DNA of 64,000 bases from Acidobacteriota bacterium (GTDB lineage Bacteria > Acidobacteriota > Terriglobia > Terriglobales > Acidobacteriaceae): contig JACPYL010000010.1 in the NCBI GenBank assembly GCA_016196065.1, forward strand, positions 992,001 to 1,056,000, in the 5' to 3' direction. Numbering within the stretch: position 1 is the first letter of the stretch; every line of letters starts with the position of its first letter. Both the position numbers and the translations under genes were made by a program. The notes under the pieces are model-generated. The model was not told the origin of the DNA, ran no database searches, and was given only the letters and a program-made list of their open reading frames with translations. This document shows, in pieces, positions 27,490 through 52,984 of this stretch.

Positions 27490-27504
27490 CATCAGGAGCG
27501 TCTT

Positions 27505-28836: not shown

Positions 28837-28845
28837 ACGCCGATC

Positions 28846-36285: not shown

Positions 36286-37530
36286 ATGAGTTCGGAAATA
36301 GAAATCAGCGGTCGAATGGCCCAGCCAGTGTATCAAAAGGAGCCGACCAGGGCCGCGTGTGACGTGGCAGTCATCGGCGCCGGCCCGTACGGACTTTCAG
36401 CCGGTGCTCACTTGAAGGCTAAAGGCATCAATGTTCGCGTGTTCGGCGACCCTATGGAATTTTGGGCCAAGAAAATGCCCGAAGGCATGCTGCTGCGATC
36501 CCCCCGCATAGCGTCGACGATCTCCGACTCGCACGGCGCCTATACGCTCGAAGCTTATGAGGCTGCGGCCAAGATTGGACCGTCCGCACCTCTCCCTCTA
36601 GATACGTTTGTCGCTTACGGAAAGTGGTTTCACCACCAGTTAGGATCGAACCTAGAGTCGCGAACGGTGACGCGCGTCGACCGTGAGCAGCAAGGATTTC
36701 GTTTGACGATGGAAGACGGAGACGTCGTTCGCTGTGGTCGCGTCGTTGTTGCTGCTGGAATCGGACCTTTTAGGAGAAAACCGGCGGTTTTTCGTGGGTT
36801 GCCCGAGGACCGTGTATCCCATTGTTACGAAGGACGGGACATCTGCAAGTACGCGGGCAAGAGGGTTGCCGTAATTGGTGCCGGGCAGAGCGCGCTGGAA
36901 TCAGCGGCTCTTCTGCATGAAGCAGGCGCGAAAGTGGAAGTCATTGTGCGGAACCCTTCTTTACGATGGATTGGCATGCACAAGTGGCTGCACAGACTGG
37001 GACCGATCTCCGCTTTGCTCTATTCCAAGCACGATGTCGGTCCACTTGGCGTGAGCCGCCTTGTTGCCTACCCCAAACTCGTGTCGGTCGTTCCTCTGAA
37101 GGTTCGCGACAAGATTCGAACCCGCGCAGTGCGGCCAGCTGGATCACCTTGGCTCATTGATCGCCTATCGACTGTAAAGATTACTACTGGGCGAGTCGTC
37201 TGGCAGGCGGCTACCGAGGGGAACGAAGTTGCCCTGTCGCTCGACGATGGGAGCGAACGACGTGTAGACCATGTTTTATTGGGAACAGGGTATGAAGTTG
37301 ATATTTCTCGCTATGAATTTCTGCCTCCCGAACTCGTCAAAGAAGTACAACTGTTTGGCGGATATCCCAAGCTCCGTAGCGGGTTCCGTAGTTCCGTACC
37401 GGGTTTGCACTTTATCGGAGCTACGGCAGCGAGGAGTTTTGGCCCGCTGCTCTATTTCGTCGCGGGTACCGAATTTGCATCGCGGGAGCTCTCGTCGCAC
37501 ATCTCTCGTAGTGCAGGGGAAACCAATTGA
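36286..37530 (+). CDS. FAD-dependent oxidoreductase (FMO/N-hydroxylase-like), copy 1
   Basis: A two-dinucleotide-domain flavoprotein with GAGPYGLSAGAHL near residue 30 for FAD and GAGQSALESAALL near residue 207 for NAD(P), plus a late GATAARSFGPLLYFVAGT segment. This is the arrangement of flavin monooxygenases and ornithine N-hydroxylases. The ATG at 36286 has GGAGG (36276-36280) five bases upstream. A homologue of similar length is at 49583, and both are tied to an ATP-grasp gene (TGATG here). The substrate is unknown. Hydroxylation or oxidation of an amino group on a glycan substituent is a reasonable guess. Confidence 0.8.
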   Translation: MSSEIEISGRMAQPVYQKEPTRAACDVAVIGAGPYGLSAGAHLKAKGINVRVFGDPMEFWAKKMPEGMLLRSPRIASTISDSHGAYTLEAYEAAAKIGPSAPLPLDTFVAYGKWFHHQLGSNLESRTVTRVDREQQGFRLTMEDGDVVRCGRVVVAAGIGPFRRKPAVFRGLPEDRVSHCYEGRDICKYAGKRVAVIGAGQSALESAALLHEAGAKVEVIVRNPSLRWIGMHKWLHRLGPISALLYSKHDVGPLGVSRLVAYPKLVSVVPLKVRDKIRTRAVRPAGSPWLIDRLSTVKITTGRVVWQAATEGNEVALSLDDGSERRVDHVLLGTGYEVDISRYEFLPPELVKEVQLFGGYPKLRSGFRSSVPGLHFIGATAARSFGPLLYFVAGTEFASRELSSHISRSAGETN

Positions 37531-38750
37531 TGGCCACCACAGCGGTCGAAAATAGAGCGACGAAATCGATGGTGTCCTGCGCACCGCCCGTGGGGGCGGT
37601 AATCGTGGGTGGCGAGCATCCTGGTTTGGGAATTGTTCGCAGTCTCGGCCGCAAGGGGATTCCGGTTTGCATCGTGGATGACCAGCAATCGGTGTCACAA
37701 TTCTCCCGATACGCGGGCCGAACAGTCCGCGTAAGAGACCTGCGGGATGAACAGAAGACCGTAGACAGCATCCTCGAAGTTGGTGAGCGTTTCGGACTCA
37801 GGGGCTGGGTTCTCTTTCCCACTCGCGACGAAACGGTGGCTGCATTCGCGCGCCATAGAGAGCGTCTGGCCCAATTTTTCCGCGTTACGACGCCAAACTG
37901 GGAAAGCGTCAAATGGGCTTGGGATAAGAAAAACACCTATGAGCTCGCGGAACAGCTGGGAATCCCAGTGCCAGGGACGTGGAATCCGAGGAGTAAGGAG
38001 GACCTTGCTCAGCTCTACGGCCGTCTGCCGCTGGCCATCAAGCCGGCCATTAAAGAAAATTTTTTTTACGCCACACACTCGAAGGCCTGGCGGGCCGATA
38101 CTCCCGCCGAACTCGACACTCTGTTCGTCCGTGCCACGCGTCAAATCAGACCGGAAGAAGTACTGATCCAGGAGATCATTCCCGGAGATGGTACTCGGCA
38201 GTACTCATATTGCGCATTCTTTCGCGACGGTAAAGCTCATAGCAGTCTCACCGCGATGCGTATGCGACAGCATCCCCGCGAATTTGGACGCGCTGCTACC
38301 TATGTCGAGAGTGTAGATTTGCCGGAGATCGAGGAGCTCTCGGAGCGTTTTCTTAAGGCGATTGACTACTACGGCCTGGTCGAAGTCGAGTTCAAACAGG
38401 ATCCTCGCGACGGAAAGTTTAAACTGTTGGATGTAAATGCTCGCACTTGGGGATTTCATAGTATCGGCGCTCCAGCGGGAATCGATTTCCCGTATCTGCT
38501 GTTTGCGGATCAGTTGGGAGAAGTCGTTCCACCATCCCGTGGGCGGGCTGGAGTCGGCTGGCTGCGGCTGATAACGGACATGCCAACTGCGGCATCTGAC
38601 CTGTGGCACGGCCACATGGATTTGGGTTCTTACGTCGAGTCCCTGAAGCGCACTCGCGTGGAGTCAGTATTTTCTGTGGACGACCCGATTCCCGCAATCG
38701 CTGAATTGTGCATGCTACCGTACCTAGTTGCCAAGAAGTACATCCTCTAG
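37530..38750 (+). CDS. ATP-grasp ligase-like protein, copy 1
   Basis: A 406-residue ATP-grasp enzyme of the carboxylate-amine ligase type. The N-terminal pre-ATP-grasp domain has GAVIVGGEHPGLGIVRSLG. The ATP site includes LAIKPAIKENFF and a conserved Asp-x-Asn in KLLDVNARTWGFH near residue 305. Start ATG at 37530 shares its first base with the FAD gene stop. ATP-grasp enzymes activate a carboxylate as acyl-phosphate and join it to an amine. In this locus it might attach an amino acid to a uronate, or form a peptide-like decoration. That is inference. A partner copy is at 48351. Confidence 0.8.
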   Translation: MATTAVENRATKSMVSCAPPVGAVIVGGEHPGLGIVRSLGRKGIPVCIVDDQQSVSQFSRYAGRTVRVRDLRDEQKTVDSILEVGERFGLRGWVLFPTRDETVAAFARHRERLAQFFRVTTPNWESVKWAWDKKNTYELAEQLGIPVPGTWNPRSKEDLAQLYGRLPLAIKPAIKENFFYATHSKAWRADTPAELDTLFVRATRQIRPEEVLIQEIIPGDGTRQYSYCAFFRDGKAHSSLTAMRMRQHPREFGRAATYVESVDLPEIEELSERFLKAIDYYGLVEVEFKQDPRDGKFKLLDVNARTWGFHSIGAPAGIDFPYLLFADQLGEVVPPSRGRAGVGWLRLITDMPTAASDLWHGHMDLGSYVESLKRTRVESVFSVDDPIPAIAELCMLPYLVAKKYIL

Positions 38751-38988
38751 TGCCCATTTAGCTTGCTCATAATGTTTCTTGCGTTCTTGTGACGACAAAC
38801 CTCCAGCATGCCGAGTTGTATAACCCATCCCACGCATGGGTTGTGCCGCGAAATCACCATACCTCTTATCTTGGAGGGCAAGTGTTTGCAGTTCACTTAA
38901 CCGATATCCCAGCTTTATGGACGACTGTTTTAGTCGCTTTGAGCATTCGCACGGATGCGGGAGCCGCTTAAATAGGATTACGAAGTGG

Positions 38989-39025
38989 GCCGGACTTGGA
39001 TTTCAGGTCCGGCTTATTTTTTTTC
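38989..39025 (+). terminator. Intrinsic terminator at the end of the glycan operon
   Basis: GCCGGAC (38989-38995) pairs with GTCCGGC (39007-39013) around an 11-base loop, followed by a T-rich run to 39025. It is about 240 bases downstream of the ATP-grasp stop and probably ends the long plus-strand transcript. Confidence 0.85.
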
Positions 39026-39106
39026 ATAACCCTAATATCGGATTTCAAAGAGAATTTTCCTCACTTACCGATTGTCCATTTTATGACGCACTACCCGGAG
39101 GCACCA

Positions 39107-39135
39107 TTGACGTATGCACCAATGTGATCTAGTCT
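39107..39135 (+). promoter_or_regulatory. Weak sigma70-like promoter candidate for HAF-repeat gene
   Basis: TTGACG (39107-39112) and TAGTCT (39130-39135) are spaced 17 bases apart, about 55 bases before the ATG at 39189. The -35 is good and the -10 is poor. No other signal supports it. Confidence 0.3.
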
Positions 39136-39188
39136 GTTTTCGTTCTTCTTCGTAATCATTACCTTCCCCAGCAAGCAGTGTGACCCTA

Positions 39189-40187
39189 ATGACCCTCCGT
39201 CGTTTGTTGTCCGTTGTATTCGCTGGTGTGGTTTCGTGCACCGTGCCGGAACTCCACGCGCAGACCATCGCAACTTTTGATGTCCCGGGCGCTGAGGGTA
39301 CATTTCCGCAAGCGATCAATCGAGATGGTCAGGTCGCGGGATACTACCGGGACAATGTGTTTCAAAATCATGGTTTCGTTCGTGATGCGAGCGGCATCCT
39401 AGTGACATTTGATGTTCCGGGTTCGATCAACACCACGCCAGTAGCGATCGATCAGGACGGTCATATCACAGGCTCCTATGGGGATTCGGTTGCTGACCAT
39501 GGTTTCTTGCGCCAGCCGGATGGCAACATTCTCTTGTTCGATGCTCCCGGTTCGAGCGGGACCTATCCTCGCGGCATCAGTCCCGGAGGTTTGATCACCG
39601 GCTACTATTACGACGACTTCGGCATTCATGGATTTCTTAGGGCTAAGAACGGAAACGTGATTCCCTTCGATGCTCCTGGAACTTTCCCAATTACATTTCC
39701 GCAGGCGATTAACCGAAAAGGGCAGATCGCGGGGTGGAATATCGATCAGCCGGGAGCCAGTGGCCGAGGCTTCGTGCGCGAAGTTGATGGGACCTTCACG
39801 AGATCGTTCGATTCCGAGACCTACGCGGTCGCGATCAATGCGGAAGGCGAAGTCAGCGGTTACACGGGCAATAACGCGATTCGGGGGTTCCTGTCCGAGC
39901 CCGATGGCAACGAAGTCATTTTCGATGTCGTGAATTCCACGATTTCCGCAACTCCAGTGGCGATCGATCACTCTGGACGCGTAGCGGGCTGGTATTACGA
40001 CGACCAGACAGGAGCCGTGAACGGCTTCATACGAAAGCGCGATGGCACATTCGTCAAATTTTCTGTGTCGCCCTCGGCGGAAACTTTTCCCACTGCCATG
40101 TTCGGGAGCCGGATCACCGGCGATTACGACGATGAAAATGGCACACACGGTTTCGTTCGTGACAGTCAGAATACGGATGTGCACTGA
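39189..40187 (+). CDS. Secreted HAF-repeat protein
   Basis: An exported protein of 332 aa with a signal peptide (about residues 1-25, ending HAQ). It is built almost wholly from repeats of 40-45 residues of the form FDVPGS-x-T-PxAI-x-x-x-G-x-I-x-GxYxD-x-x-x-HGFLR-x-x-DG, counted as about seven. These HAF-type repeats are common in secreted proteins of acidobacteria and relatives and probably fold as a beta-propeller. No enzymatic motif is seen. The ATG at 39189 was chosen over a GTG three codons upstream. It stands alone with its own weak promoter. Confidence 0.8.
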   Translation: MTLRRLLSVVFAGVVSCTVPELHAQTIATFDVPGAEGTFPQAINRDGQVAGYYRDNVFQNHGFVRDASGILVTFDVPGSINTTPVAIDQDGHITGSYGDSVADHGFLRQPDGNILLFDAPGSSGTYPRGISPGGLITGYYYDDFGIHGFLRAKNGNVIPFDAPGTFPITFPQAINRKGQIAGWNIDQPGASGRGFVREVDGTFTRSFDSETYAVAINAEGEVSGYTGNNAIRGFLSEPDGNEVIFDVVNSTISATPVAIDHSGRVAGWYYDDQTGAVNGFIRKRDGTFVKFSVSPSAETFPTAMFGSRITGDYDDENGTHGFVRDSQNTDVH

Positions 40188-40360
40188 TTCTGTACGACCT
40201 GAAGTCTGCAATACTTGTCCATGAGCGACCGCGGTCTCGTGACGTGCTTTAGTTATTTTCTGGCTATCCCACTGGTGAAATCGCGACAATCCATTCTGCT
40301 TCGCCGGCAACCAAACTGAAAGTCACTTTACAAACCGCTTTCCTGGTATTTGTTTCCGGG

Positions 40361-41158
40361 GTGCTGTGGTGGCGTCCTCTGCTCCGCACCTTCAGCCTTG
40401 CGCTCCACGACGAAGCGTACACGCACATTCTGCTGATTGTTCCTCTGAGCTTCGCTCTCCTCTACCTGGAACGAAACCTTCTATGGCCAGCGCTCCAGTC
40501 CGGGACAGGTTTTGGAGTCGCGTGGCTGGCGGCTGCTCTGCTGCTTGCAGGCTTCGAGCGATGGGGTGCAGCCAGCATGTCCGAAGACATTCATCTTTCG
40601 TTGAGCATGCTGGCCCTCGTTCTCTGGTGGCTCGGCAGTTTTATTGTTGGTTTCGGAACACGAACCTTTCAGTCGCTCCTATTCCCACTTTTGTTCTTAT
40701 TGTGGATCGTCCCTCTTCCGGGTCTTCTGGTGGACGAGATCATCAGTTCTCTCCAATATGAATCCGCTTTCGCGGCGCGGATCATGTTCAGGCTGGCGGG
40801 TGTTCCCGTCACGCAAGACGGCGTAATACTGTCAATTCCGAGCCTGGATATTGAGGTCGCGCGCGAGTGCAGCAGCATTCGATCCAGCATGTTGCTGGTG
40901 ATCATTACGATGGTCCTCGCACATCTCTTTTTGCGTTCCGGATGGAGAAAGGTCTTCTTCATCGTCGCGGCAATTCCCATGGCAGCCATCAAGAATGGAT
41001 TCCGCATTTTTACGATCACGGAGTTGGGCACCAAAGTCGACCCAGGGTACTTCGACGGCAACCTGCATCACCGAGGTGGAATTCTCTTTCTGGGAGTGGC
41101 GCTCGTCGTGGCGGGTTTACTGTTGTGGCTTCTGCGCCGGACTGAAACCATCAACTAG
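40361..41158 (+). CDS. Exosortase (archaeosortase/exosortase family)
   Basis: An integral membrane cysteine protease/transpeptidase that cleaves proteins with a C-terminal PEP-CTERM-type signal. The 265-residue protein has about eight hydrophobic segments and the three invariant residues in order: Cys in VARECSSIRSS near residue 171, Arg in IKNGFRIFTI near residue 217, and His in GNLHHRGG near residue 234. The GTG at 40361 cuts into what looks like the first membrane segment. A CTG at 40316 in the same open frame would include it, so the true start may be non-standard. The only candidate substrate in the window is the protein at 42071-42289. Confidence 0.9.
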   Translation: MLWWRPLLRTFSLALHDEAYTHILLIVPLSFALLYLERNLLWPALQSGTGFGVAWLAAALLLAGFERWGAASMSEDIHLSLSMLALVLWWLGSFIVGFGTRTFQSLLFPLLFLLWIVPLPGLLVDEIISSLQYESAFAARIMFRLAGVPVTQDGVILSIPSLDIEVARECSSIRSSMLLVIITMVLAHLFLRSGWRKVFFIVAAIPMAAIKNGFRIFTITELGTKVDPGYFDGNLHHRGGILFLGVALVVAGLLLWLLRRTETIN

Positions 41159-41193
41159 CCTCTTTCACTCCGCCTCTTCGTTTGAAGCCAAGA

Positions 41194-41792
41194 GTCCTCA
41201 CAACACGACGGCGAAAGCATACACGGTGAATATCACCGTACAGCCGACCAACGGACCGATGAGTATTCTCTATGCGTGACCCACAGGTCAGAGTCAGCCC
41301 GGTTCCTCCACCCTGAACGCTCCAACTGGCACGACGGTTTCGATCACCGCGATCTTGGGCGCTGGAGCAAATGGTCAGATCAACCTTCTCCCCACGAACA
41401 ATACGAACGTGGTGATCGACATCACGGGATACTATGCGGCGCCGGGTTCGGGTAGGCTGTCGTTGCACCCAGTTGCGGGTTGCCGCGCGGTGAGCGCGTT
41501 AGCTTTCAGCCAAACGACAACGCTGAACATCGCGGGTTCATCATGCAAGCTTCCACCAGCCGCGAAGGACTATGTTCTGAATGGGACCATTGTCCCTTGG
41601 TTCGGATACCTTGGGAACCTGGTGTTCTGGGCAAATGGAACATCCCAACCCGGCATGACTTCTCTGGCGGGTACCGATGGTTCTGTTGTTTCCAACGGAG
41701 CGGTGGTTTCCACTACGAACGGGTACATCAACGTTAACTGCCAGAACATGACGTCGTTGTATGTGGATATCAACGCATACTTCGCACCATAA
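41194..41792 (+). pseudogene. Surface protein C-terminal fragment with in-frame stop
   Basis: One frame gives AYTVNITVQPTNGPMSILYA, then a TGA at 41277-41279, then PTGQSQPGSSTLNAPTGT and onward through NNTNVVIDITGYYAAPG to VDINAYFAP. Homologues in acidobacterial secreted proteins have Trp where the stop is (Ala-Trp-Pro-Thr-Gly-Gln), so a single TGG-to-TGA change probably interrupted the gene. The 5' part of the expected larger protein is missing, with no start or signal peptide. A good terminator follows (41824-41857), suggesting that the gene was once transcribed. Confidence 0.72.
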
Positions 41793-41823
41793 AACAGCGA
41801 TAGGACAATCAGAGTTAGAGAGA

Positions 41824-41857
41824 GGCTGCGCCCGTACGAAACGGGCGCGGCCTTTTT
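41824..41857 (+). terminator. Strong intrinsic terminator
   Basis: A 12-bp stem with one G-U pair (GGCTGCGCCCGT at 41824-41835 with ACGGGCGCGGCC at 41841-41852), a 5-base loop and a T5 run. Follows the surface-protein pseudogene by about 30 bases. Confidence 0.92.
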
Positions 41858-42020
41858 GCTGTACAGGCGGATTCGGATCGATTGTTGAGCAGTTTGGAGT
41901 GGAGTGCGAATTCCGAGGACATTATCGGAAAAGGACAGTCAAGGATAGTGAACGGATGCGAACGCAGAGACCTAGACCGGCGCTCAAGGAGAGAGATTGC
42001 TTGGAAGGCGCAAAATAGAA

Positions 42021-42049
42021 CGAGGCTCATCCCCTGAGGGTGAGCCTCG
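42021..42049 (-). terminator. Intrinsic terminator for the PEP-CTERM gene
   Basis: CGAGGCTCA (42021-42029) and TGAGCCTCG (42041-42049) form a perfect 9-bp stem. Read on the minus strand it is followed by TTCTATTTT. It lies 21 bases past the stop of the minus-strand gene at 42071. It could also act weakly on the plus strand. Confidence 0.8.
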
Positions 42050-42070
42050 TCAATTTATAGGACCTAAAAA

Positions 42071-42289
42071 CTATGATTGAGTAACAGCCTTAGAACGTGA
42101 GCGAATCACCATCGCCCCCAGACACGTGATCCCAGCGCCGAGCAAGTAAACTAGCGCAGAGCCACCTTCCGGGACCTGCTGGCAACGCCGATCGCGTCTC
42201 GGATCGCATCGGTCTCTGGGGCCTGCAAAAGACGCGGGCGCCAGCAACATCAAAAACAAAGCAGCCAGTACAAACTTTCGATTGATCAT
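42071..42289 (-). CDS. Small PEP-CTERM-like (VPEGGS) exosortase substrate
   Basis: A 72-residue exported protein: signal peptide (about residues 1-22, ending ASFAG), a very short charged middle rich in Arg and Asp with two Cys, then a C-terminal sorting signal with VPEGGS, a hydrophobic helix (ALVYLLGAGITCLGAMVI) and a basic tail (RSRSK). That tripartite tail is what exosortases recognise. The start ATG (42289) has AGGGAG eight bases upstream; a longer frame to 42418 is not needed. The mature part would be only about 20 residues. A good promoter candidate lies at 42390-42418. It is the probable substrate of the exosortase 0.9 kb away. Confidence 0.8.
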   Translation of the reverse strand: MINRKFVLAALFLMLLAPASFAGPRDRCDPRRDRRCQQVPEGGSALVYLLGAGITCLGAMVIRSRSKAVTQS

Positions 42290-42389
42290 CAGCAAAACTC
42301 CCTTTAAACGGACTATATTTTGACCTCTTGCAGGGGAGTGTCTACACAAGGGCCGCTTTGTTAGCAAAACCGCCCATAGCACTACTAAC

Positions 42390-42418
42390 ATTAGGCCCTG
42401 CCCGTAAGTCGCTGTCAA
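42390..42418 (-). promoter_or_regulatory. Sigma70-like promoter for the small PEP-CTERM gene
   Basis: On the minus strand TTGACA (42418-42413) and CCTAAT (42395-42390) are separated by 17 bases. The predicted transcript has a 5' leader of about 90-100 bases before the ATG at 42289. Confidence 0.5.
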
Positions 42419-42608
42419 GATGATACTTTTTGCAACAGTTGCACGGGAATGCGACCCCTTTCCACTCCACTGTTCGTCAACAAGCCCAAAATTCGAACCG
42501 AAAGTGGGGGGTGGTATCCCCTAAATACTTGACTGTCTTGCCCCAAGCAACCCGGTTTCCCCTTATCCTAGGTAGTCACGCCGTTTTGGGGGCGAGGCAT
42601 CCTCAACC

Positions 42609-42944
42609 ATGAAGATGAGCTGGCGGTACGTGCTCTTGGGTGTCTTGGCGCTAATCTCGACTGCCGTAGTTCTATTGCGCGATTCCTCCGACCGGCATCA
42701 CACCGTGACTCTCACTTGGAACGCTGCAGCGCCCCCTAGAGGGGGCAGTTTGGCAGGATACAACGTCTACCGGCGTATTGCGGAGGGAGGCCCTTTTGTC
42801 AAGATTGCCGGGAAGGTACCGGGTTCGCCCTATGACGACCGTTTCGTGACCAGCGGTCGAAAATATGTGTATGTCGTGACGTCGGTAGACCAAACCGGAC
42901 GGGAAAGCAGATATTCAACTCCGGTCGAAGTACAAATTCCATGA
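42609..42944 (+). CDS. Small exported fibronectin type III domain protein
   Basis: A 111-residue protein with an N-terminal membrane anchor or signal (about residues 7-23) and a single FnIII domain: TVTLTWNAAAPPRGGSLAGYNVYRR in outline, then DRFVTSGRKYVYVVTSVDQTGRESRYS near the end. It may be a surface adhesion or spacer module. The leader contains an inverted repeat (CCCCAA near 42540 with TTGGGG near 42585) of unknown meaning. No partner is obvious. Confidence 0.78.
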   Translation: MKMSWRYVLLGVLALISTAVVLLRDSSDRHHTVTLTWNAAAPPRGGSLAGYNVYRRIAEGGPFVKIAGKVPGSPYDDRFVTSGRKYVYVVTSVDQTGRESRYSTPVEVQIP

Positions 42945-43016
42945 CACGGCGAACGCCAGATTCGGCAAGTCGTAGGGTTGGGGCACACAGCGGTTTGCTC
43001 GATACGAAGAAGAGAA

Positions 43017-43784
43017 TTACTTGGTAACAGCTTTGAGCCCGCTGGGAGGCGAGGGTCCTCCATCAGTAGCACTGAAATCGGAAAAACCAAAAAAACTCCA
43101 ATTAAAATCTGGATTGTCGTAGAACCCTATGCCTGGGCTTCCAGAATTGTAGACTGCGTGACCCTTCTGGCAATCAGGGCCTTCGTTTCCCTCGTTTCCT
43201 GTGTCGGTAACCTGCATGATTTGCGAACCATTCCGATACGCCGTAAGAACTGGCGGATTGCCTGCGACCGTCGCTCTAAGAACGTCTCCATCGATGAGAT
43301 TGATAGAAGGCACGGACGGCTCGATGTTGCACCAGAGCCCATTTTTTCCGCCCCAGCGTGCGATGTGACAATAGCGGTTATTTGGCATCACGCTGCAGTA
43401 AACTTCATAGCCGGTGATGGTATGGGCGGATGCGTCAATGGTCGTCCTTAAACGCAGTTCTATTTCGTGACAACAACTCCCGGAGGGAGTCGTGTTGATT
43501 TTGACCGTGCCCTGTACTGTCTGGTCGGGGCCCCATGTTCCCGTCAGTATGGCAGTCGGATCGCCAAATTGGGTAGGTTCGCTAACTCCGAACGCATAAC
43601 CTGCCGTTTGTACGTCGCCCCAAAGATCTTTGCCCGCGGTGCTTCCGCCCGTCCAGTTGCAGGGACTACCCTCGCAGATAGGATTCTCAGTGGCAGGGAA
43701 CTTCGTGCTATAGGTACGGGCAGCGAGCGGAAGAGTTAACATCAAGAGAGCCGTCGCGAGGCCATTTTTGTTTATGATCCGCAT
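43017..43784 (-). CDS. Secreted jelly-roll-like domain protein (minus strand)
   Basis: Exported protein of 255 aa with a signal peptide (about residues 1-22). The rest is one copy of the domain found at 34023 and inside the 44598 protein, starting TYSTKFPATENPICEGSPC and ending FFGFSDFSATDGG. Compared with the other copies it has extra cysteines (for example CEGSPC, SCCHEIELRLR, YCSV), likely disulfides. It ends with PSPPSGLKAVTK, the start of an FnIII-like linker, so it may be a truncated version of a longer protein. Confidence 0.75.
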   Translation of the reverse strand: MRIINKNGLATALLMLTLPLAARTYSTKFPATENPICEGSPCNWTGGSTAGKDLWGDVQTAGYAFGVSEPTQFGDPTAILTGTWGPDQTVQGTVKINTTPSGSCCHEIELRLRTTIDASAHTITGYEVYCSVMPNNRYCHIARWGGKNGLWCNIEPSVPSINLIDGDVLRATVAGNPPVLTAYRNGSQIMQVTDTGNEGNEGPDCQKGHAVYNSGSPGIGFYDNPDFNWSFFGFSDFSATDGGPSPPSGLKAVTK

Positions 43785-44597
43785 AAAACTTCTGGAATTT
43801 AAACTAAACTAGCGACATGACGGCCACCAGACACGGAAGTGCATTCCTGGCCAAGGAAACGTCCGATCCCGCGGTTGTTCTTGTGTCAACTAGACCGGTG
43901 GTCGCCGGGCGACTGGCCGCCGAACACGTCACAGTCTAATGACCTTTCGATTGTGGTGACTAAGGGTCAATCTATGTCGAAGGGCCACGGAAGTTCCACC
44001 GATTCTCGTCTGACAATCTAACGCGCGAAGTTGGAAGTCGTGGGGACAGTCCGCAGTATCGCCTGGAGCAGTGTCGACGGCCTTTCCGCAATGGACGGCT
44101 ACGCGCAAGGACTACTCAGTGCTTTTCCCTTAACGAGCGAGAGGCTATATAGCCCGCGTTGAAGGCAGCGCCGCACCCGTGGGACCGGGAAACGGTTGGG
44201 ATGCGATCATTCGCCGCGTAGTGCCGCAAGCGCATCATCTTTGTTCCTTCCCGCCTCGCTGAGTCCACTCACATCGCCTCTGCGCCTTGTACTCAATTTG
44301 TGCTGACTCGTTATCCGCGAAGTGCATCGAGTACTCTCGGCCTGTCGAATTTCGATCCCGCTTCCGACGGGTTCTTAATGATTCCGGGATTCCAAAATGG
44401 GATTAAGGGAGCCTCGGTATGTACTAACGATTTGGACCAAAGCCAAAGTGAGCAGTAAAGATCAGGCAACATGGGACGTAGAATAGTCAAATTACAAACA
44501 TCGCCCTGGGGGGCAACGTTTCACCACCCAGAGAATCCTACGTTGGGCTCCTGACGCAACCGCCGGAGTTCCTGAGGCGGGTCGCGTAAAGGTCAAA
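43785..44597 (+). other. Intergenic stretch upstream of the 1131-residue protein
   Basis: About 810 bases with no supported gene. A start-less open frame of about 79 codons ends at 44459, and a hairpin-capable leader (GACGCAACCGCC with GGCGGGTCGCGT, about 44552-44587) lies just before the ATG at 44598. I recognise no riboswitch class with confidence. Confidence 0.6.
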
Positions 44598-47500
44598 ATG
44601 AAAAGTGTGTTTGATGCGAGAAACCAATCCACCGAGAAATGCGTCCCGAAGCAGAGTGCTCGTCGTGCTACAACTGTTCTCGGAAATAGACTGCGCTGCC
44701 TCCTGCCGATAGCCATGTTTTTTTGCGCTGCCGCAACTGTGCTGGCTGCCGCGCCCGGGTTCAAGCAGGAAAAGGATAATCAAGCGAACTCCGGGAACAC
44801 GAGCAGGGTGACGTTTTCCGCGCCCATCTCGTCTGGAAATCTTATTGCGGTCTATCTCATTTGGGACAATACGGGAAGCGCTTCGGTTTCTGATTCTTTG
44901 GGGAACAGTTACACCAGTGCCGTCGTGCCGACTCGATGGTCCAATAGCAGGTACAGCACCCAGATTTTCTATACGATCAGCGCGAGCAGTGGTATCGATT
45001 CGGTAACGGCCACATTTGCGACGAGACTCAGTCAGTTCGGCATTATCTACGCGCACGAATACACCGGGATCCGCGCAACCGCACCAATCGATGTGACTGC
45101 CGCTGCAGTCGGAACGTCCGGCTCTCTTTCCAGCGGGTCGGCCACTACCCTAAACGACAACGATCTGCTTTTTGCGGGAGGAGTATCGGCAAATCGTGTG
45201 ACGGGCGCAGGCGCCGGCTATACCGCGCGCTCGAACGCGCAAGCCAACATCACCGAGGACAGAGTGGTTTCTGTCAAAGGTTCCTACAGCGCGACGGCAA
45301 GCAACAGTGGTGGCGCGTGGGCGATGCAGTTGGTCGCCTTTAAGGGCCTGGCGGCAGGGGACACCACACCTCCTACGGTGCCGACCGGCCTTAACACGAC
45401 CGTCCTGTCCCCGACGCAAATCAACTTGTCGTGGAATGCTTCCAGCGACCCTGACAATCCCTCGAGTCAGTTGAGCTACAGCATCTATCGGAACGGCACT
45501 CGCGTTTCTACCACGGCAGCGGGTGTGATCTCGTGGACAGATTCCGGTCTCTCTCCCTCCACCACATACACATATACGGTTTCTGCCGCCGATCCAGCTG
45601 GCAACGTTTCGGCGCAATCCGCCCCCGTGCAGGCGACAACACCGCCTGCATCGGACACGACCCCACCGACGGTTCCGGCCAATCTTGCGTTGACAGGTAC
45701 AACGGCATCGACGGTTTCCCTGGCGTGGAACGCCAGTACCGACAATGTTGGCGTGGCCGGATACAAGATTTTTCGCAGTGGAACGCAAGTGGGCTCGACG
45801 GGAGCGGTTTCCTATACCGATACCGGCCTTGCGGCCTCAACGACCTATTCTTATACCGTGTCCGCCTTTGACGCGACTGGGAACAATTCAGCGCAGAGTG
45901 CTCCGGTAAGCGCCACCACAGCGACGCCGGATACCCAAGCCCCAACCGTTTCCATCACGTCTCCTGCCAATAATCAGACCGTTTCCGGTGCTTTTACAAT
46001 CACCGCGAATGCAGCGGATAATGTGGGAGTTGTCGGAGTCCAGTTTCAGCTTGACGGGAACAGTCTGGGCGCCGAAAACCCCTCACCGCCGTATTCCATC
46101 ACGTGGGACACCACACAGACTGCAAATGGTTCCCATGTCTTGACCGCCGTGGCGCGAGATGCGGCAGGCAATAAGACCAGTTCGTCGCCGGTAACCGTTA
46201 CGATCAACAACAACTTCCCTAGACCCTACAGCACTACGTTCCCGCTCACGGAGAGTCCCATATCCGAGGGCGGCAACTGGATGAGCGCGATGGCCGGAAC
46301 TCGTGGAAATCTTTGGAGCGACGTGTATACCTCCAGCCATTTCGCCTATGGTCCAGCACTGCCAACGCAGTTCGGTGATCCTACGGCTATGCTCGCTGGA
46401 AGCTGGACTCCAGATCAGAGTGCGCAGGCGACGGTCCGTGTAGTCACCCCACACAGTGACTGCTGCCATGAAGTCGAAATACGTCTACGTACGGCAATGG
46501 GACCCAACTCGATCACGGGATACGAAATCAATTGCAGCGTTGCGACGGCGAACCCCTACGTCCAGGCAGTACGGTGGAACGGACCCAACGGCGACTTCAC
46601 CTATATTGGGTCCGCAAATACGAACTGCGTGGACGGGGATGTACTCAATGCAAGCATAATAGGAAGCACAATTTCCGTTTACAAGAACGGGATTTTGCTT
46701 TTCATCGCCAACGATTCCACATTTACGAGTGGAGCGCCCGGCATTGGCTTCTACCAGGCGGGCAGCGGCAACTTCAATGATTTTGGTTTTTCCAGCTTCA
46801 CAGCCTCGGACGGGTCCACGAACGATACATCGCCTCCATCGGTTCCCGCCAACCTCGCTGCAAGTCCTTTTTCTCCCTCCGAGATTGATCTGGCCTGGAC
46901 TGCTTCAACGGACAACGTCGGAGTGGCGGGTTATCAGGTGTTCCGCGATAACGTTCCAAGAGGGACCAGTACGACTGCCAGTTTTTCTGACAAGACCGTG
47001 TTTCCCAATATTCAATACACGTACGCTGTGTCCGCCTTCGATGCGGCCGGAAATGTATCAGATCAATCCTCGCCAGTGGTCGCACAGACGTCGTTCGGGT
47101 CCGACACAACACCTCCCTCTGTTCCGGCCAACCTGCAGACGTCGAAAGTGACGTCGACCACTTTGACCCTTACCTGGTCCGCGTCGACTGACAATGTTGC
47201 GGTTGCGGGCTATTGGATATTCCGGAACGGTGCTCAGGTAGGCACCATAACCACGGCCACGAGTTTCGTCGATACGGGCCTAACCCCGTCGACGACCTAT
47301 TCTTACACGATCGCTGCATATGACACTTCCAACAATGTCTCCGCCCAATCCCAGTCGATAACCGTGACCACTGCACCTCTGGCGATGACTCCCCCATCCA
47401 TCGTTCAAGTGAATCAAAATCAAATCGCCAGTGGATCGAGCACCTCGGTCACGTTCAACACTCCGACGGTTGCGGGGAATACGATTGTGGTCTATGTGAT

Positions 47501-47993
47501 CTGGAACAACGCGGGCAACGTTACTGTGACGGATTCTCGCGGTAATACTTTTGTCAGCGTCAGCGCACCAGTGATCTGGAGCAGCGGAAACAGCGCGCAG
47601 ATTTTCTATGCTTCAGGTATTGCCGGGGGGGCGGACACAGTGACTGCTGCGTTTCGTACTCCTGTAACCAATTTTGGTGTTGTATACGTACACGAATACG
47701 CCGGAATCAGCGTAAGCAGTCCGGTCGATCTCACGGCCTCCGCGACAGGGTCTTCGGGCTCATTGAACAGCGGGGCCATCACTACCACTGGTGCGAATGA
47801 ATTGATCTTTGGTGCTGGCGTCTCAGATAACTCGGTAACTGCTGTCGGGTCGGGTTTCAGCTCGCGAGATCTGGCATACGGCAACGTTACGGAAGATCAG
47901 GTTGCAGCTTCAATTGGCTCCTATGCCGCCACCGCCACGCACAATGGCAGGATATGGGGCATACAGGTAGTGGCGTTCCGCCCCGCTCAGTGA
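44598..47993 (+). CDS. Large secreted multidomain protein with duplicated terminal domains
   Basis: An exported protein of 1131 aa with a long N-terminus and a signal segment (about residues 32-51). Domains in order: a beta-rich domain of about 200 residues (53-252), two FnIII domains (about 254-350 and 352-440, each starting DTTPPTVP), an Ig-like domain (about 442-538), one jelly-roll-like domain (541-740) shared with two other proteins here, two more FnIII domains (about 742-833 and 835-928), and a second copy of the first domain (930-1131). The terminal copies share W(D/N)N-x-G, HEY(A/T)GI, TED and W-(A/G)-(M/I)-Q features. Possibly an adhesin or a glycan-binding scaffold. There is no PEP-CTERM tail or other anchor. 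Confidence 0.82.
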   Translation: MKSVFDARNQSTEKCVPKQSARRATTVLGNRLRCLLPIAMFFCAAATVLAAAPGFKQEKDNQANSGNTSRVTFSAPISSGNLIAVYLIWDNTGSASVSDSLGNSYTSAVVPTRWSNSRYSTQIFYTISASSGIDSVTATFATRLSQFGIIYAHEYTGIRATAPIDVTAAAVGTSGSLSSGSATTLNDNDLLFAGGVSANRVTGAGAGYTARSNAQANITEDRVVSVKGSYSATASNSGGAWAMQLVAFKGLAAGDTTPPTVPTGLNTTVLSPTQINLSWNASSDPDNPSSQLSYSIYRNGTRVSTTAAGVISWTDSGLSPSTTYTYTVSAADPAGNVSAQSAPVQATTPPASDTTPPTVPANLALTGTTASTVSLAWNASTDNVGVAGYKIFRSGTQVGSTGAVSYTDTGLAASTTYSYTVSAFDATGNNSAQSAPVSATTATPDTQAPTVSITSPANNQTVSGAFTITANAADNVGVVGVQFQLDGNSLGAENPSPPYSITWDTTQTANGSHVLTAVARDAAGNKTSSSPVTVTINNNFPRPYSTTFPLTESPISEGGNWMSAMAGTRGNLWSDVYTSSHFAYGPALPTQFGDPTAMLAGSWTPDQSAQATVRVVTPHSDCCHEVEIRLRTAMGPNSITGYEINCSVATANPYVQAVRWNGPNGDFTYIGSANTNCVDGDVLNASIIGSTISVYKNGILLFIANDSTFTSGAPGIGFYQAGSGNFNDFGFSSFTASDGSTNDTSPPSVPANLAASPFSPSEIDLAWTASTDNVGVAGYQVFRDNVPRGTSTTASFSDKTVFPNIQYTYAVSAFDAAGNVSDQSSPVVAQTSFGSDTTPPSVPANLQTSKVTSTTLTLTWSASTDNVAVAGYWIFRNGAQVGTITTATSFVDTGLTPSTTYSYTIAAYDTSNNVSAQSQSITVTTAPLAMTPPSIVQVNQNQIASGSSTSVTFNTPTVAGNTIVVYVIWNNAGNVTVTDSRGNTFVSVSAPVIWSSGNSAQIFYASGIAGGADTVTAAFRTPVTNFGVVYVHEYAGISVSSPVDLTASATGSSGSLNSGAITTTGANELIFGAGVSDNSVTAVGSGFSSRDLAYGNVTEDQVAASIGSYAATATHNGRIWGIQVVAFRPAQ

Positions 47994-48350
47994 CTATCTA
48001 TGTAGCCTGCCATCTATTGAAGGACCGACAACGGGGAAGACTCGCCCACAACCAGATTCGGGTCCTGAGCACAAGAGGCAAAAAATACTGCCGAACGTGC
48101 TATCAAGGGTCCCGATGTGCAATCGGACTCTCTCTCGACCGTATCGGCTAACTTTTGGTTTCGAAACCTCTGCGGGACGCAGGCATTCTTTAGGACCAGT
48201 GCTGGCCAAAGCATGCTAGCCTTCTTGAGGAGCCGGGTGGTTTCGGCCAGCGGCAGACGATCCGACCATATGAAGAGCTATCGCGAAGACTGCTCCAGGA
48301 CGTCGATGCCCCTAGCTGTTTAGGCGTGACATCAAGAAGTTCAAATACTT
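47994..48350 (+). other. Intergenic stretch, nothing recognised
   Basis: About 357 bases between the large secreted protein and the ATP-grasp gene. No promoter, terminator hairpin or coding potential could be supported. Short open frames look random. Confidence 0.6.
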
Positions 48351-49583
48351 GTGTCTAGTTCACAACCAACGGTATTGCTGGTCGCAACAACCCGCTGGTT
48401 TCCGGCGGCTCGGCTTGCAATGGCGCTTGCGGACGCCGGTTTTCGAGTGGAAGCTTTTTGTCCAGCGGGCCATCCTGTCACTAAAACGAGCGCAGTACGC
48501 GCGACCATCCGATATCGCCCGCTGTTACCGCTTAAGTCACTCCAACATGCGATCGAAGCAACCCACCCTCACTTAGTGATTCCCGCTGACGACTTGGCGG
48601 TCCGTCATCTCCACGCCCTTCATCAACGAGACCTACAACGCGGTGCAAGTGAGGCTCGTTCCGCGCTCCTGATAGAACGTTCAATTGGTTCGCCGGAGAG
48701 CTTTCCCATCTTGTCGGACAGGGCTGCTTCCATGCGAGTGGCCGAGGAGGAGGGTGTCAGAGTTCCTGAGACCCACGCTCTTCACTCTGTGGACGATCTC
48801 AAGAAGTGGGTTGAACGTATGGGCCTTCCCACGGTCCTCAAGGCAAATGGAACCTCCGGGGGTGATGGAGTGCGGGTTGTTCGAACGATGAAAGAAGCCG
48901 AACTGGCTTTCCAGGCTTTGCAAGCGCCTCCGCTCATTGCCCGGGCTTTGAAACGGGCAGTTATCGATCACAATTGGTCCTTGGTACAGCCATCGCTGCT
49001 CCGACGCCGATCGGTTGTTAATGCGCAGAAATTTGTGGACGGATGTGAAGGGACTAGCGTAGTCGTCTGCTGGGAGGGAGCAGTGCTGGCTTCGCTCCAC
49101 TTTGAGGTCATTCAGAAGCGAGACGCGGCGGGCCATGCTACGGTCGTGCGTTTCATGGAGAATGAAGAAATGTCTGATGCAGCGAGCCGAATCGCCCGAC
49201 GCTTGCGGCTCTCCGGAATACACGGGCTTGACTTCATGTTGGAAGCTGACACGCGGAAGCCATACATGATTGAAATCAATCCGCGTGTCACGCAACTCTG
49301 CCACCTCACGCTTGGGCTGGGACACGATGTTCCGGCAGCCTTGTTGGAGGCGCTGTCCGGGAAGACCGTGGCGCCTTCTCCAAAGCTGACCGACCATGAC
49401 ACCATCGCACTATTCCCGCAGGAGTGGATCCGCGATCCGCAGAGTTCGTTTCTGCGTTCCGCGTATCAAGATGTTCCGTGGCAAGAGCCCGGGCTGATGG
49501 AAGCCTGTGTCCGCAGCAGCAGAAAACAGCGAGGTTGGCATCGCCCAGGGAAATCGATGGATGCTAAACAGAGGAGTTCGTAA
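48351..49583 (+). CDS. ATP-grasp ligase-like protein, copy 2
   Basis: A 410-residue ATP-grasp enzyme. The pre-ATP-grasp part begins TVLLVATTRWFPAARLAMAL. The ATP site includes TVLKANGTSGGDGVRVV near residue 165 and the metal/ATP block LDFMLEADTRKPYMIEINPR near residue 305, with Glu and Asn in the expected places. It is of the same general type as the protein at 37530 but clearly divergent. The GTG start at 48351 is the first in frame. Its stop overlaps the following FAD gene (TAATG). Joining an amino acid or acyl group to an amine is likely; substrate unknown. Confidence 0.8.
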   Translation: MSSSQPTVLLVATTRWFPAARLAMALADAGFRVEAFCPAGHPVTKTSAVRATIRYRPLLPLKSLQHAIEATHPHLVIPADDLAVRHLHALHQRDLQRGASEARSALLIERSIGSPESFPILSDRAASMRVAEEEGVRVPETHALHSVDDLKKWVERMGLPTVLKANGTSGGDGVRVVRTMKEAELAFQALQAPPLIARALKRAVIDHNWSLVQPSLLRRRSVVNAQKFVDGCEGTSVVVCWEGAVLASLHFEVIQKRDAAGHATVVRFMENEEMSDAASRIARRLRLSGIHGLDFMLEADTRKPYMIEINPRVTQLCHLTLGLGHDVPAALLEALSGKTVAPSPKLTDHDTIALFPQEWIRDPQSSFLRSAYQDVPWQEPGLMEACVRSSRKQRGWHRPGKSMDAKQRSS

Positions 49584-50773
49584 TGCAGGAAATTGCGATC
49601 ATTGGCGCAGGTCCGTACGGACTCTCGATAGCGGCTCACTTGCGGCAACGTGGCATGCCGTTTCGTATCTTTGGCCCGCCGATGGATACGTGGCTGTCGC
49701 ACATGCCCAGGGGAATGTTCCTTAAGTCGGATGGTTTCGCTTCCAATCTTTCAGATCCGGACGGCGCCTACACCCTGAAGAAATTTTGTGAAGAGAAAGG
49801 AATCGCCTACGCAGATATGGGGCTCCCGGTGCGTCTCGAAACCTTTTGCGCCTACGGACTCGCCTTTCAGAATCGAATGGTACCCAACCTGGAAAACAGG
49901 CTGGTCGTCGGACTGGATCGCACTCAAGGTGGATTTTCAATCCAGCTCGAAAATGGGGAAACGTGCGTTGCAAAGCGCGTCGTACTCGCGGTGGGAATTA
50001 CTCACTTCGAAAATCTGCCGTCGAACCTGGCGCAACTGCCGGCCCAATTTCTATCCCACAGCGCCCGGCACATCGAAGTTGAACCATTTAGAGGACGGAA
50101 TATCGTCGTGATGGGCGGCGGCGCATCGGCGTTGGACATAGCCGGACTGCTCTATGAAGCGGGCGCGAAAGTCCAACTCATTGCCCGCAAACAAGCTCTG
50201 AACTTTCATAGCAAGCCCGGTCCGACGCCGCGATCAAGGTGGCGGAAGCTCCGGCATCCCGACTCCGGAATCGGCCCTGGCATGCGGTTGCGGTTCTTCG
50301 CGAATGCTCCGTGGGCCTTTCAATATCTTCCTCAGTCACTACGCCTGAAAGCGGTGCAGAGGGTGCTCGGTCCTTCGGGCGGATATTTCACTCGCGATAT
50401 GGTCCTTGGGAAAGTGCCCCTGCTGCTTGGCTACACAGTGGAGCGGGCTGAAGTTCAGGGGGACGGTGTTCACCTTCACCTGCGGTCGCTCGACGGATCA
50501 GTGAAGGAAGTCCTGACCGAGCATGTCATCGCCGCGACCGGATATCGGGTTGACCTCGAAAAGCTAAATTTCGTGGCCAAGGAACTTCGCTCGCAAATTC
50601 GCGCCGTAAACGGCGCACCCGTTCTGCGGTCGAATTTTGAATCGTCAGTGCCAGGGTTGTATTTCGCTGGAATCGCCGCCGCAAACACCTTTGGACCGGT
50701 GATGCGGTTCGCGTTTGGCGCGGGGTTTGCCGCCCGGCGGATATCGCAGTCTCTCGAGAAGGCTGTCACGTAA
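49583..50773 (+). CDS. FAD-dependent oxidoreductase (FMO/N-hydroxylase-like), copy 2
   Basis: A flavoprotein of 396 aa, homologous to the one at 36286. FAD motif IAIIGAGPYGLSIAAHL is at the N-terminus, the second nucleotide motif is VVMGGGASALDIAGLL near residue 175, and a late GIAAANTFGPVMRFAFG matches GATAARSFGPLLYFVAG of copy 1. The ATG overlaps the ATP-grasp stop. The gene order is reversed relative to copy 1 (ATP-grasp first). It converges with the glycosyltransferase gene on the other strand, 33 bases away. Confidence 0.8.
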   Translation: MQEIAIIGAGPYGLSIAAHLRQRGMPFRIFGPPMDTWLSHMPRGMFLKSDGFASNLSDPDGAYTLKKFCEEKGIAYADMGLPVRLETFCAYGLAFQNRMVPNLENRLVVGLDRTQGGFSIQLENGETCVAKRVVLAVGITHFENLPSNLAQLPAQFLSHSARHIEVEPFRGRNIVVMGGGASALDIAGLLYEAGAKVQLIARKQALNFHSKPGPTPRSRWRKLRHPDSGIGPGMRLRFFANAPWAFQYLPQSLRLKAVQRVLGPSGGYFTRDMVLGKVPLLLGYTVERAEVQGDGVHLHLRSLDGSVKEVLTEHVIAATGYRVDLEKLNFVAKELRSQIRAVNGAPVLRSNFESSVPGLYFAGIAAANTFGPVMRFAFGAGFAARRISQSLEKAVT

Positions 50774-50806: not shown

Positions 50807-51754
50807 TCATACTTGCCCAAGATTGCCTACGACGTTCTCTTCGCGTTTACGCCTTGGCAAGATTCTGCACGCGGTAAGAGTCAATAACCGCAAAGTCTGC
50901 CTTGCAACCAGGAGAACGAATGCTGCTCGTCCAATGGACTTAGTTTTGGAAATCCTCCAGATGGAGCGCAGCATCCCGAATCTCTCGCGATGGTTCATGA
51001 GAACCTTTATGCCCAAAGTTGAAATAATGGCGTGCGTCGGAGCCTCCAGCAGGGCAGAGCGAACCGTCCTGCGCAGAACTCCCAGAACCGACAGATTGAT
51101 CGGATGACGGACGGCGGCAGCCCGGACAAAAAAAGGCAATTGATTCCGTCGCATCAAGTTGGCCAACAGAAGCGAATCCTCGGCGCGCAGCGCGCGCTCA
51201 TCAAATAGACCTGTCTCTACATCGACACAGGAACGCCGAACAGCGAACCCGGCAGTGTTCATGTATCGAATGCAGCCATCCGGTTGGAGAAGAAAGCTCT
51301 GCGTGGCGATCAGACGCAAGTCCTCAGCCTTTCCGGGCAGGTTGGATCGCACTCCCGCCAAACAAAGCTGAAAGTAGCCGCACGAGGGGGACGCCGCGAT
51401 GCATGCGCCCAATGCGGCGAAGCAATGATCTTCGAGGATGCAATCGGCGTCAGTGAAGACCAGAATCTCGCCGACCGATTGTCGAATCCCATGATTTCTG
51501 GCTGCCGCCGGTCCAAGATGCGGCTGCCGTAGGATTTTCCAACGATACTTCTGCATCCACTCGAGGATGGATGCAGGCGCATTGTGTGTACTGCCGTCAT
51601 CGACAACAATGACTTCAAAACTGAATGCCTTGGTCTGTGCAGCCAGTGATTGCAGGCAGTTCGCCAGCGGCGCCCAATCGTTGTAAACCGCGATGATGAC
51701 GCTCGCGAATAGCCGGTTCGCCTGTTGGACATCCGGGTCGGCTGCGGATGGCAT
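50807..51754 (-). CDS. Glycosyltransferase family 2 (minus strand)
   Basis: A GT-A enzyme of 315 aa with ASVIIAVYNDWAPLANCLQSL at the N-terminus, DDGSTHN near residue 52, and FTDADC near residue 98 as the metal motif. It has a basic C-terminal region. It follows the carrier-thioesterase gene in the same direction by 27 bases, so the two probably form a small operon. Could act on a lipid or peptide-linked product rather than the main glycan. Confidence 0.86.
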   Translation of the reverse strand: MPSAADPDVQQANRLFASVIIAVYNDWAPLANCLQSLAAQTKAFSFEVIVVDDGSTHNAPASILEWMQKYRWKILRQPHLGPAAARNHGIRQSVGEILVFTDADCILEDHCFAALGACIAASPSCGYFQLCLAGVRSNLPGKAEDLRLIATQSFLLQPDGCIRYMNTAGFAVRRSCVDVETGLFDERALRAEDSLLLANLMRRNQLPFFVRAAAVRHPINLSVLGVLRRTVRSALLEAPTHAIISTLGIKVLMNHRERFGMLRSIWRISKTKSIGRAAFVLLVARQTLRLLTLTACRILPRRKREENVVGNLGQV

Positions 51755-52897: not shown

Positions 52898-52984
52898 GGT
52901 CGATCTGAGTGCGAGTGGCCCCGTGTCGTCAATCATTCGCACCGCACGCTTGAAGAAGATGTTAGCCGAATTCGACCCATAAGA

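Follow-up and report, generated by a model that had tools for sequence, protein, structure and literature searches.

A flavoprotein and an ATP-grasp protein form a conserved two-gene unit that occurs twice, with two ATP-grasp subfamilies, in an Acidobacteriota genome

We analyzed a stretch of 64,000 nucleotides (the window) from an Acidobacteriota bacterium of the order Terriglobales (GenBank assembly GCA_016196065.1, contig JACPYL010000010.1, positions 992,001 to 1,056,000). The window harbors two pairs of overlapping genes, each encoding a flavin adenine dinucleotide (FAD) protein and an ATP-grasp protein (Table 1). FAD1 runs from the ATG at 36286 to the TGA at 37528-37530 and overlaps with the ATG of ATP-grasp1 at 37530 (TGATG); the listing of open reading frames also gives a TTG at 37527 as alternative start of ATP-grasp1. 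In the second pair the TAA of ATP-grasp2 (49581-49583) overlaps with the ATG of FAD2 at 49583 (TAATG), and a GAGGAG stretch lies immediately 5′ of the FAD2 start. Both junctions, which had been reported in an initial annotation of the window, were verified in the letters.

Table 1. Genes of the two pairs and further features of the window
Feature	Position	Strand	Remarks
FAD1	36286..37530	+	two-dinucleotide-binding flavoprotein, T1-partnered clade; Pfam Pyr_redox_2/3
ATP-grasp1	37530..38750	+	subfamily T1; carbamoyl-phosphate-synthase-like / carboxylate-amine ligase type
ATP-grasp2	48351..49583	+	subfamily T2; GTG start; TAA 49581-49583
FAD2	49583..50773	+	flavoprotein with the predicted fold of N-hydroxylating monooxygenases
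Conserved neighbor read as polysaccharide deacetylase	34902..36254	+	by eye
GT2 glycosyltransferase adjoining FAD2	50807..51754	-	PF00535, E 1.5e-25
Carrier (PP-binding) and thioesterase protein	51782..53011	-	PF00550, PF00975
FemAB/GNAT-like acyltransferase, same sugar-coat cluster	18228..19277	+	41% identical homologue in L003
Asparagine-synthase-like amidotransferase, same cluster	6047..7864	+	PF13537, PF00733

FAD1 and FAD2 are homologous along the whole chain (38% identity across 398 columns, E 7e-82) and are the sole matches of the FAD family at E 1e-3 in the whole 5.5-Mb genome. A late motif common to both proteins, which the initial annotation had pointed out, was confirmed; two glycines and a proline of it (FAD2 positions 363, 371 and 372) are each found in no fewer than 83 of the 84 members of the family. 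Since the homology runs over the full length, this motif is one of many stretches that the two proteins have in common. ATP-grasp1 and ATP-grasp2 have scant likeness (22% over 87 amino acids, E 3e-4). As described below, they belong to two subfamilies, and FAD1 and FAD2 to different clades, which rules out that one module was simply copied and inverted.

The FAD family was searched in genomes with a profile (A1) at a limit of 1e-50 in the phylum and 1e-60 elsewhere. The gene was found in 48 of 200 genomes of the Terriglobales, in 7 of 297 genomes of the phylum, in 6 of 385 and 19 of 198 genomes of the class and the family, respectively, of a Bradyrhizobium, and in 2 of 349 genomes of the order of Methylovorus. 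For the study of gene neighborhoods a set of 86 stretches (L numbers) with 89 FAD genes was compiled, comprising at most 20 kb around 80 places, two extra loci, three plasmid loci and the window. Of the FAD genes, 84 make up the core; the remaining five are distant (196-228 bits) and partnerless. With iterated profiles the ATP-grasp genes fell into two groups, T1 (ATP-grasp1-like) and T2 (ATP-grasp2-like).

A T1 or T2 gene resides within 3 kb of 57 of the 89 FAD genes and is lacking at this distance in 32; one of the 57 pairs (L130) depends on a T1 fragment 2.4 kb off. Homologues of the two proteins are thus commonly, not rarely, adjacent, in Alphaproteobacteria as well. Among the 33 T1 pairs the FAD gene comes first in 28 and the ATP-grasp gene in five. 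The 24 T2 pairs are mostly divergent (16), with six FAD-first and two ATP-grasp-first; the order ATP-grasp2-FAD2 was seen in the window and in L133 only. The mirrored order noted initially therefore applies to the window but is not a general rule.

Co-occurrence was determined in the 200 Terriglobales genomes. T1 (at least 370 bits) or T2 is carried by 47 of the 48 genomes with an FAD gene and by 3 of the 152 genomes without (Fisher p 6e-41, kinship ignored). We chose the limit of 370 bits for T1 after the scores were known; a stricter count, admitting only the 12 T1 genes of at least 500 bits, gave 43 of 48. Genome G1308 was scored T1-positive despite its T1 gene lying in two contig-end fragments. 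The lone exception with an FAD gene is G1239, in which the FAD match (44-673, covering 211 of 394 positions) lies at the end of a contig. T1 genes of at least 500 bits were found in 12 genomes, all of which possess an FAD gene, and always at most 130 bases from the FAD match. Of the 37 genomes with T2, 34 also possess an FAD gene; the remaining three belong to one genus (g9). The distance between T2 and FAD (n=41) was below 1 kb in 20 cases and 1-50 kb in six; 12 T2 genes reside elsewhere in the genome and three in genomes without FAD. Because of this near-constant co-occurrence, though 12 of 41 T2 genes are far from FAD, the tie between the FAD gene and its partner is more than operon structure. 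Two FAD genes together with T1 and T2 were, besides the window genome, also detected in G1348 and G1269.

When the gene contexts were mapped on a maximum-likelihood tree of the 89 FAD proteins, the labels required 13 changes, compared to a mean of 48.7 after shuffling. FAD1 falls within a supported set of eight rows, all of them T1-paired (nearest L083_56, 72% identity), while FAD2 groups (100/99) with eight genes adjoining a MetY gene. One might argue that adjacency and co-occurrence are chance products of shared island transfer or of kinship, as the distribution is patchy, some locations are on plasmids, such as those of the two pairs of Granulicella tundricola, and the co-occurrence counts ignore kinship. 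We consider this very improbable: the partners stay together while order and strand vary, the 12 distant T2 genes reside in genomes that do possess an FAD gene, and of eight T1-like genes scoring only 333-365 bits six belong to FAD-negative genomes and none, among the matches listed, adjoins an FAD gene. Conserved adjacency in three arrangements, a partner type that tracks the FAD tree and co-occurrence even when the genes are apart strongly support the earlier assumption that the pair works as one unit. The FAD and ATP-grasp proteins are a real, uncharacterized two-enzyme unit, which is present twice in the window with two ATP-grasp subfamilies.

The annotations of the two proteins are generic: 'NAD(P)/FAD-dependent oxidoreductase' for the one, 'ATP-grasp domain-containing protein' or 'carboxylate--amine ligase' for the other. 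In Terriglobales the proteins behind these labels are hardly ever found without each other, and the pairing makes an otherwise hopeless question of function testable, by a joint assay and by comparison of pair-positive with pair-negative relatives. None of the papers listed by text searches of the open-licence literature of PubMed Central (PMC) described the pair, an absence that is weak because only papers of this kind were covered.

The AlphaFold2 model of FAD2 (predicted local distance difference test, pLDDT, 80; predicted template modelling score, pTM, 0.80) displays the three-domain fold of group-B flavoproteins over its full length. The best structural match was the N-hydroxylase SsDesB (Z 32.4, 365 residues, root-mean-square deviation 3.2, 16% identity), and other N-hydroxylases gave similar values (PvdA 31.9, putrescine N-hydroxylase 31.2, DfoA 31.1 and KtzI 31.0). 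The best of these matches span 363-368 of the 396 residues of FAD2, including the middle substrate region. Foldseek placed SsDesB and putrescine N-hydroxylase in the first two rows and ferredoxin-NADP reductase in the third. Furthermore, a profile of the 84 core members matched a reading frame of the Sinorhizobium plasmid pSymA, read as the N-hydroxylase RhbE, in global (probability 98.8, E 7e-16) as well as in local mode (probability 98.0, E 2e-13). The family and this frame share the two dinucleotide motifs as well as a D-x3-A-A-T-G-Y stretch. The glycines of the dinucleotide motifs (Gly8, Gly10, Gly178 and Gly180) occur in 84 of 84 members. The stretch D-x3-[LF]-ATGY is a motif of N-hydroxylating flavin monooxygenases; of the 84 family members 72 have its Asp, 29 have Leu or Phe and 43 have Ala there, and FAD2 itself possesses Glu and Ala. 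A universal cysteine was not found among the 84 members (best column 54 of 84, residue 69). For this reason, a disulfide reductase of the YpdA-like, thioredoxin or bacillithiol type was dropped as a candidate, although sequence matches had pointed to a YpdA-like one. By its modelled fold the FAD protein resembles N-hydroxylases and is a candidate member of this group, though probably not of the ornithine subtype. The initial suggestion that it oxidizes an amine or a hydroxyl group can thus be sharpened to a fold nearest to amine N-hydroxylases in the model.

Assignment of the ATP-grasp proteins was less specific. ATP-grasp1 scored barely above the cut-off of PF15632 (30.1 versus 29.1 bits) and below that of a PRK12767-like model; its profile matched carbamoyl-phosphate synthase and 2pn1. 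ATP-grasp2 exceeded the cut-offs of PF02655, PF02786, PF14397 and PF15632, and NCBIfam gave both proteins below the curated cut-off in every row among the matches listed. The profiles of both groups match carbamoyl-phosphate synthase and related enzymes. In T2, the residues sought for a ligase were present in 22 of 22 proteins (Lys164, Gly171, Gly173, Asp294 and Glu308-x-Asn310-x-Arg312). In T1 (n=28), Lys134 and Arg306 are invariant, position 288 is Glu in 26 and Asp in two, position 302 Asp in 21 and Glu in seven, and position 304 Asn in 23 and Thr in five proteins; the T1 consensus lacks the classic Gly-rich loop. Matches of the ATP-grasp2 model were generic (carboxylases, Ddl, RimK, amino-acid ligases), the model being too poor to name a substrate. 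Activation of a carboxylate, as proposed initially, appears compatible with the catalytic residues in the sequences.

To describe the setting of the pairs, exopolysaccharide (EPS) genes were counted within 8 kb with ten EPS-type profiles. The counts are lower bounds, because not every EPS gene is recognized by the profiles and some of the stretches stop at contig ends. At least one EPS gene was found near 27 of 37 pairs in Acidobacteriota (T1 12 of 17, T2 15 of 20) and near 6 of 20 elsewhere (T1 5 of 16, T2 1 of 4). EPS genes thus do not always accompany the pair; 33 of the 57 pairs have at least one and 24 have none. FAD genes with no partner within 3 kb, the only comparison group, had EPS genes nearby in 9 of 21 cases in Acidobacteriota and in 4 of 11 elsewhere. 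In Alphaproteobacteria, several T1 pairs consist of just the two genes, with unrelated genes next to them. From the counts and these bare units, the pair seems to be self-sufficient and often, but not always, placed in sugar-coat clusters. Accordingly, the earlier idea of a glycan-decorating module is partly supported: it fits most pairs in Acidobacteriota, but only a minority of those in other bacteria, where many pairs stand alone.

Some stretches also contain genes of amino-acid chemistry, P450 genes being among them. MetA was detected in 10 of the 86 loci (within three genes of FAD in nine), MetY in 12 (in eight) and an AMP-ligase in 11 (in four). A gene of the aspartate kinase family (named on L174) adjoins T2 in L083, L084, L174, L175 and L176 and lies in the same stretch as FAD and T1 in L123 and L128. 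A gene of the nonribosomal peptide synthetase (NRPS) type adjoins T2 in L167 and FAD in L093; in L166 and L170 it is separated from T2 by a few genes. Since the neighbors are amino-acid enzymes, an amino-acid-type substrate is suggested. L083, L084, L122, L123, L128 and L174-L176 harbor aspartate kinase, MetA, MetY, AMP-ligase, carrier, carrier-thioesterase and P450 genes in varying subsets; possibly, these recurring subsets represent a dedicated branch leading to a homoserine-derived amino acid. In L154-L156 the FAD gene lies at most three genes from a HalD-family halogenase (scanned on L155), which is BesD-like below the cut-off of that model. These loci, from Filomicrobium, Methylovorus and a relative, also contain a GNAT gene and an unknown 400-aa protein around FAD, and neither T1 nor T2 in the 20 kb examined.

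The pairing, the co-occurrence, the fold of the FAD2 model and the conserved catalytic residues are observations, whereas N-hydroxylation, amide formation, the substrate and attachment to a glycan are inferred. Most likely, the FAD protein would be a group-B flavin monooxygenase dependent on O2 and reduced nicotinamide adenine dinucleotide phosphate (NADPH), hydroxylating the amine nitrogen of an amino acid or an amino-sugar-like substrate. The ATP-grasp protein would most likely activate a carboxylate as acyl phosphate and join it to an amine, and the product of the pair may be an N-oxygenated amide or a hydroxamate-like group. In Acidobacteriota the unit is commonly built into exopolysaccharide clusters. 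Some of these clusters contain aspartate kinase, MetA, MetY, AMP-ligase, carrier and thioesterase genes, a setting that suggests synthesis of an unusual amino acid and its transfer to a carrier or a glycan. This reading as a whole, an N-hydroxylase-fold monooxygenase coupled to ATP-driven amide formation in a unit often located in EPS clusters, we hold with about as much belief as doubt.

Several points weigh against it. There is no T1 or T2 gene within 3 kb of 27 of the 84 core FAD genes, the ATP-grasp2 model is poor (pLDDT 56), and 14 of the 20 pairs outside Acidobacteriota have no EPS-type gene inside 8 kb. The eight loci with MetY within three genes of FAD are few among 86, and in each of six genomes the MetY gene adjoining FAD is the sole close copy (E 1e-80), so that it may just serve methionine synthesis. 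By sequence alone, the best PDB matches of the FAD protein are reductases of the ferredoxin and thioredoxin types, and in the structural comparison short flavin-containing monooxygenases (FMOs) and YpdA (Z 28-29 over 306-334 residues) ranked above the N-hydroxylase SidA (27.9). Moreover, two residues of known N-hydroxylases are replaced at positions which we take, from the profile match and from known motif positions, to be the equivalent ones: the approximate place of SidA Lys107 is occupied by Ser (71), Thr (11) or Ala (2) in the 84 proteins, and the flavin-contacting Gln by Lys or Arg in 83 of 84. Because of these replacements the substrate is probably other than ornithine, and N-hydroxylation is uncertain. 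Lys107 is the lysine contacting the substrate carboxylate in the ornithine type, as stated in PMC10696468, and SsDesB also lacks it according to PMC8009421.

The replaced lysine, the sequence matches (ferredoxin-NADP reductase, thioredoxin reductase and Bdr types) and the rank of short FMOs and YpdA over SidA would equally suit another two-dinucleotide flavoprotein, i.e., an S- or C-oxygenase of the FMO/Baeyer-Villiger kind or an NADPH reductase, acting on the ATP-grasp amide. This we regard as possible but rather unlikely, since the best-matching N-hydroxylases cover 363-368 residues of FAD2 versus 306-334 for YpdA and short FMOs, and no universal cysteine for disulfide chemistry exists. Another explanation doubts the glycan instead: the pair may make a free small molecule such as an N-oxygenated dipeptide or amino-acid amide, the EPS neighbors reflecting an island habit of Acidobacteriota. 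It would account for the 11 of 16 T1 pairs outside this phylum that lack EPS-type genes within 8 kb, the inspected ones lying beside unrelated genes, as well as for the NRPS-type modules and the halogenase mentioned above. On the other hand, 18 of 19 stretches around T2 genes that are distant from FAD (16) or have no FAD in the genome (3) contain an EPS gene within 8 kb, a figure without genome-wide background, and the pair of Bradyrhizobium barranii is located inside a sugar-transferase/glycosyltransferase cluster. We therefore consider also this explanation a tentative one, with a chance of well under one half.

An N-hydroxylase fold beside a likely amide-forming enzyme is reminiscent of a siderophore-like hydroxamate pathway. 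A part of the pair in such a pathway is improbable, however, as the named neighbors are sugar-coat genes and the genome has no match to the lysine/ornithine oxygenase family (PF13434) at 1e-30; the search did not extend to iron receptors or siderophore synthetases. The same lack of a PF13434 match excluded a classical siderophore N-hydroxylase as candidate. Coming back to N-hydroxylation coupled to amide formation, a far-reaching version would be that the pair puts N-hydroxylated, hydroxamate-like and metal-binding amino-acid amides on the exopolysaccharide, in some genomes from an aspartate- or homoserine-derived precursor. This siderophore-like chemistry in the sugar coat is speculative and, in our opinion, distinctly doubtful. 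If the N-hydroxylase assignment is true, nitrogen-oxygen chemistry would reach beyond siderophores into the metabolism of the cell surface or of amino acids in common soil bacteria.

Likenesses to known systems are partial. With the N-hydroxylating flavin monooxygenases SsDesB, PvdA, SidA, KtzI, DfoA and putrescine N-hydroxylase, the FAD protein has in common the full-length group-B fold, the FAD and NADPH motifs and the D-x3-A-A-T-G-Y-like stretch, but it is only 14-18% identical to them, and the ornithine-binding Lys and the flavin-contacting Gln are replaced. Such enzymes usually have an N-acyltransferase or a siderophore synthetase as partner, unlike the FAD protein with its ATP-grasp. T1 and T2 resemble the PRK12767, PF15632 and PF14397 carboxylate-amine ligases in their ATP-grasp domains and catalytic residues and differ from them in being tied to an FAD gene. 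The fusaric acid cluster possesses an amino-acid branch with aspartate kinase, a homoserine acyltransferase and a MetY-like enzyme. Parts of this set are repeatedly seen in stretches that contain FAD and T1 or T2, but the setting here is bacterial EPS, and a role of MetY beyond homocysteine is a candidate only. The D-cycloserine pathway, with an N-hydroxylated precursor, an O-acyl amino acid, a pyridoxal phosphate enzyme and the ATP-grasp protein DcsG, has a similar list of enzyme classes; this likeness is at class level.

Names of neighbor families were taken from Pfam matches of one representative each, except for the deacetylase. The protein encoded upstream of FAD1 (34902-36254) gave zero Pfam or NCBIfam matches and thus owes its label to reading by eye. 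Of the flanks described initially, GT2 and carrier-thioesterase were confirmed by Pfam, while the deacetylase was not. Its family occurs in 13 of the 86 loci (in 12 of them at most three genes from FAD), FemAB-like genes in seven (in seven; the representative matches PF13480/PF02388), AsnB-type genes in ten (in four; membership of the window gene is a candidate) and GT4 in 23 (in 18). A GT2 homologue adjoins the T1/FAD pair in L083. The carrier-thioesterase family occurs in six loci, within three genes of FAD in one; among its stretches are L084, L085, L087, L095 and L128. A stand-alone thioesterase is located directly 3′ of a pair with the order T1-FAD in L126 (8506-9345, PF00975) and L129, both from Acidobacteriota, echoing the carrier-thioesterase near FAD2.

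In L137-L140 a GINT1_N glycosyltransferase, GT4 and an unknown protein of 660-700 aa accompany the FAD gene in a conserved cluster, with neither T1 nor T2 inside the stretch. The window also encodes an exosortase (40361-41158, plus strand; PF09721, E 4.7e-42), which scored above the cut-offs of the general models TIGR02602 and TIGR04178 and below those of XrtC and XrtA. Near it, a short protein (42071-42418, minus strand) has by eye a PEP-CTERM-like tail, VPEGGSAL. A similar domain (TFP..E.PI.E..NW ... G.W.P.Q) was recognized by eye in the products of 34023-34877 (plus), 43017-43784 (minus) and 44598-47993 (plus); the copy at 43017 gave no Pfam match. Finally, a nucleotidyltransferase gene, a DRL_cat (PF21135) oxidoreductase gene and a dehydratase-like gene follow each other at 26668-29934 (plus strand), the outer two being named by eye. 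This row resembles a CDP-sugar branch in which the enzyme in the middle is unexpected.

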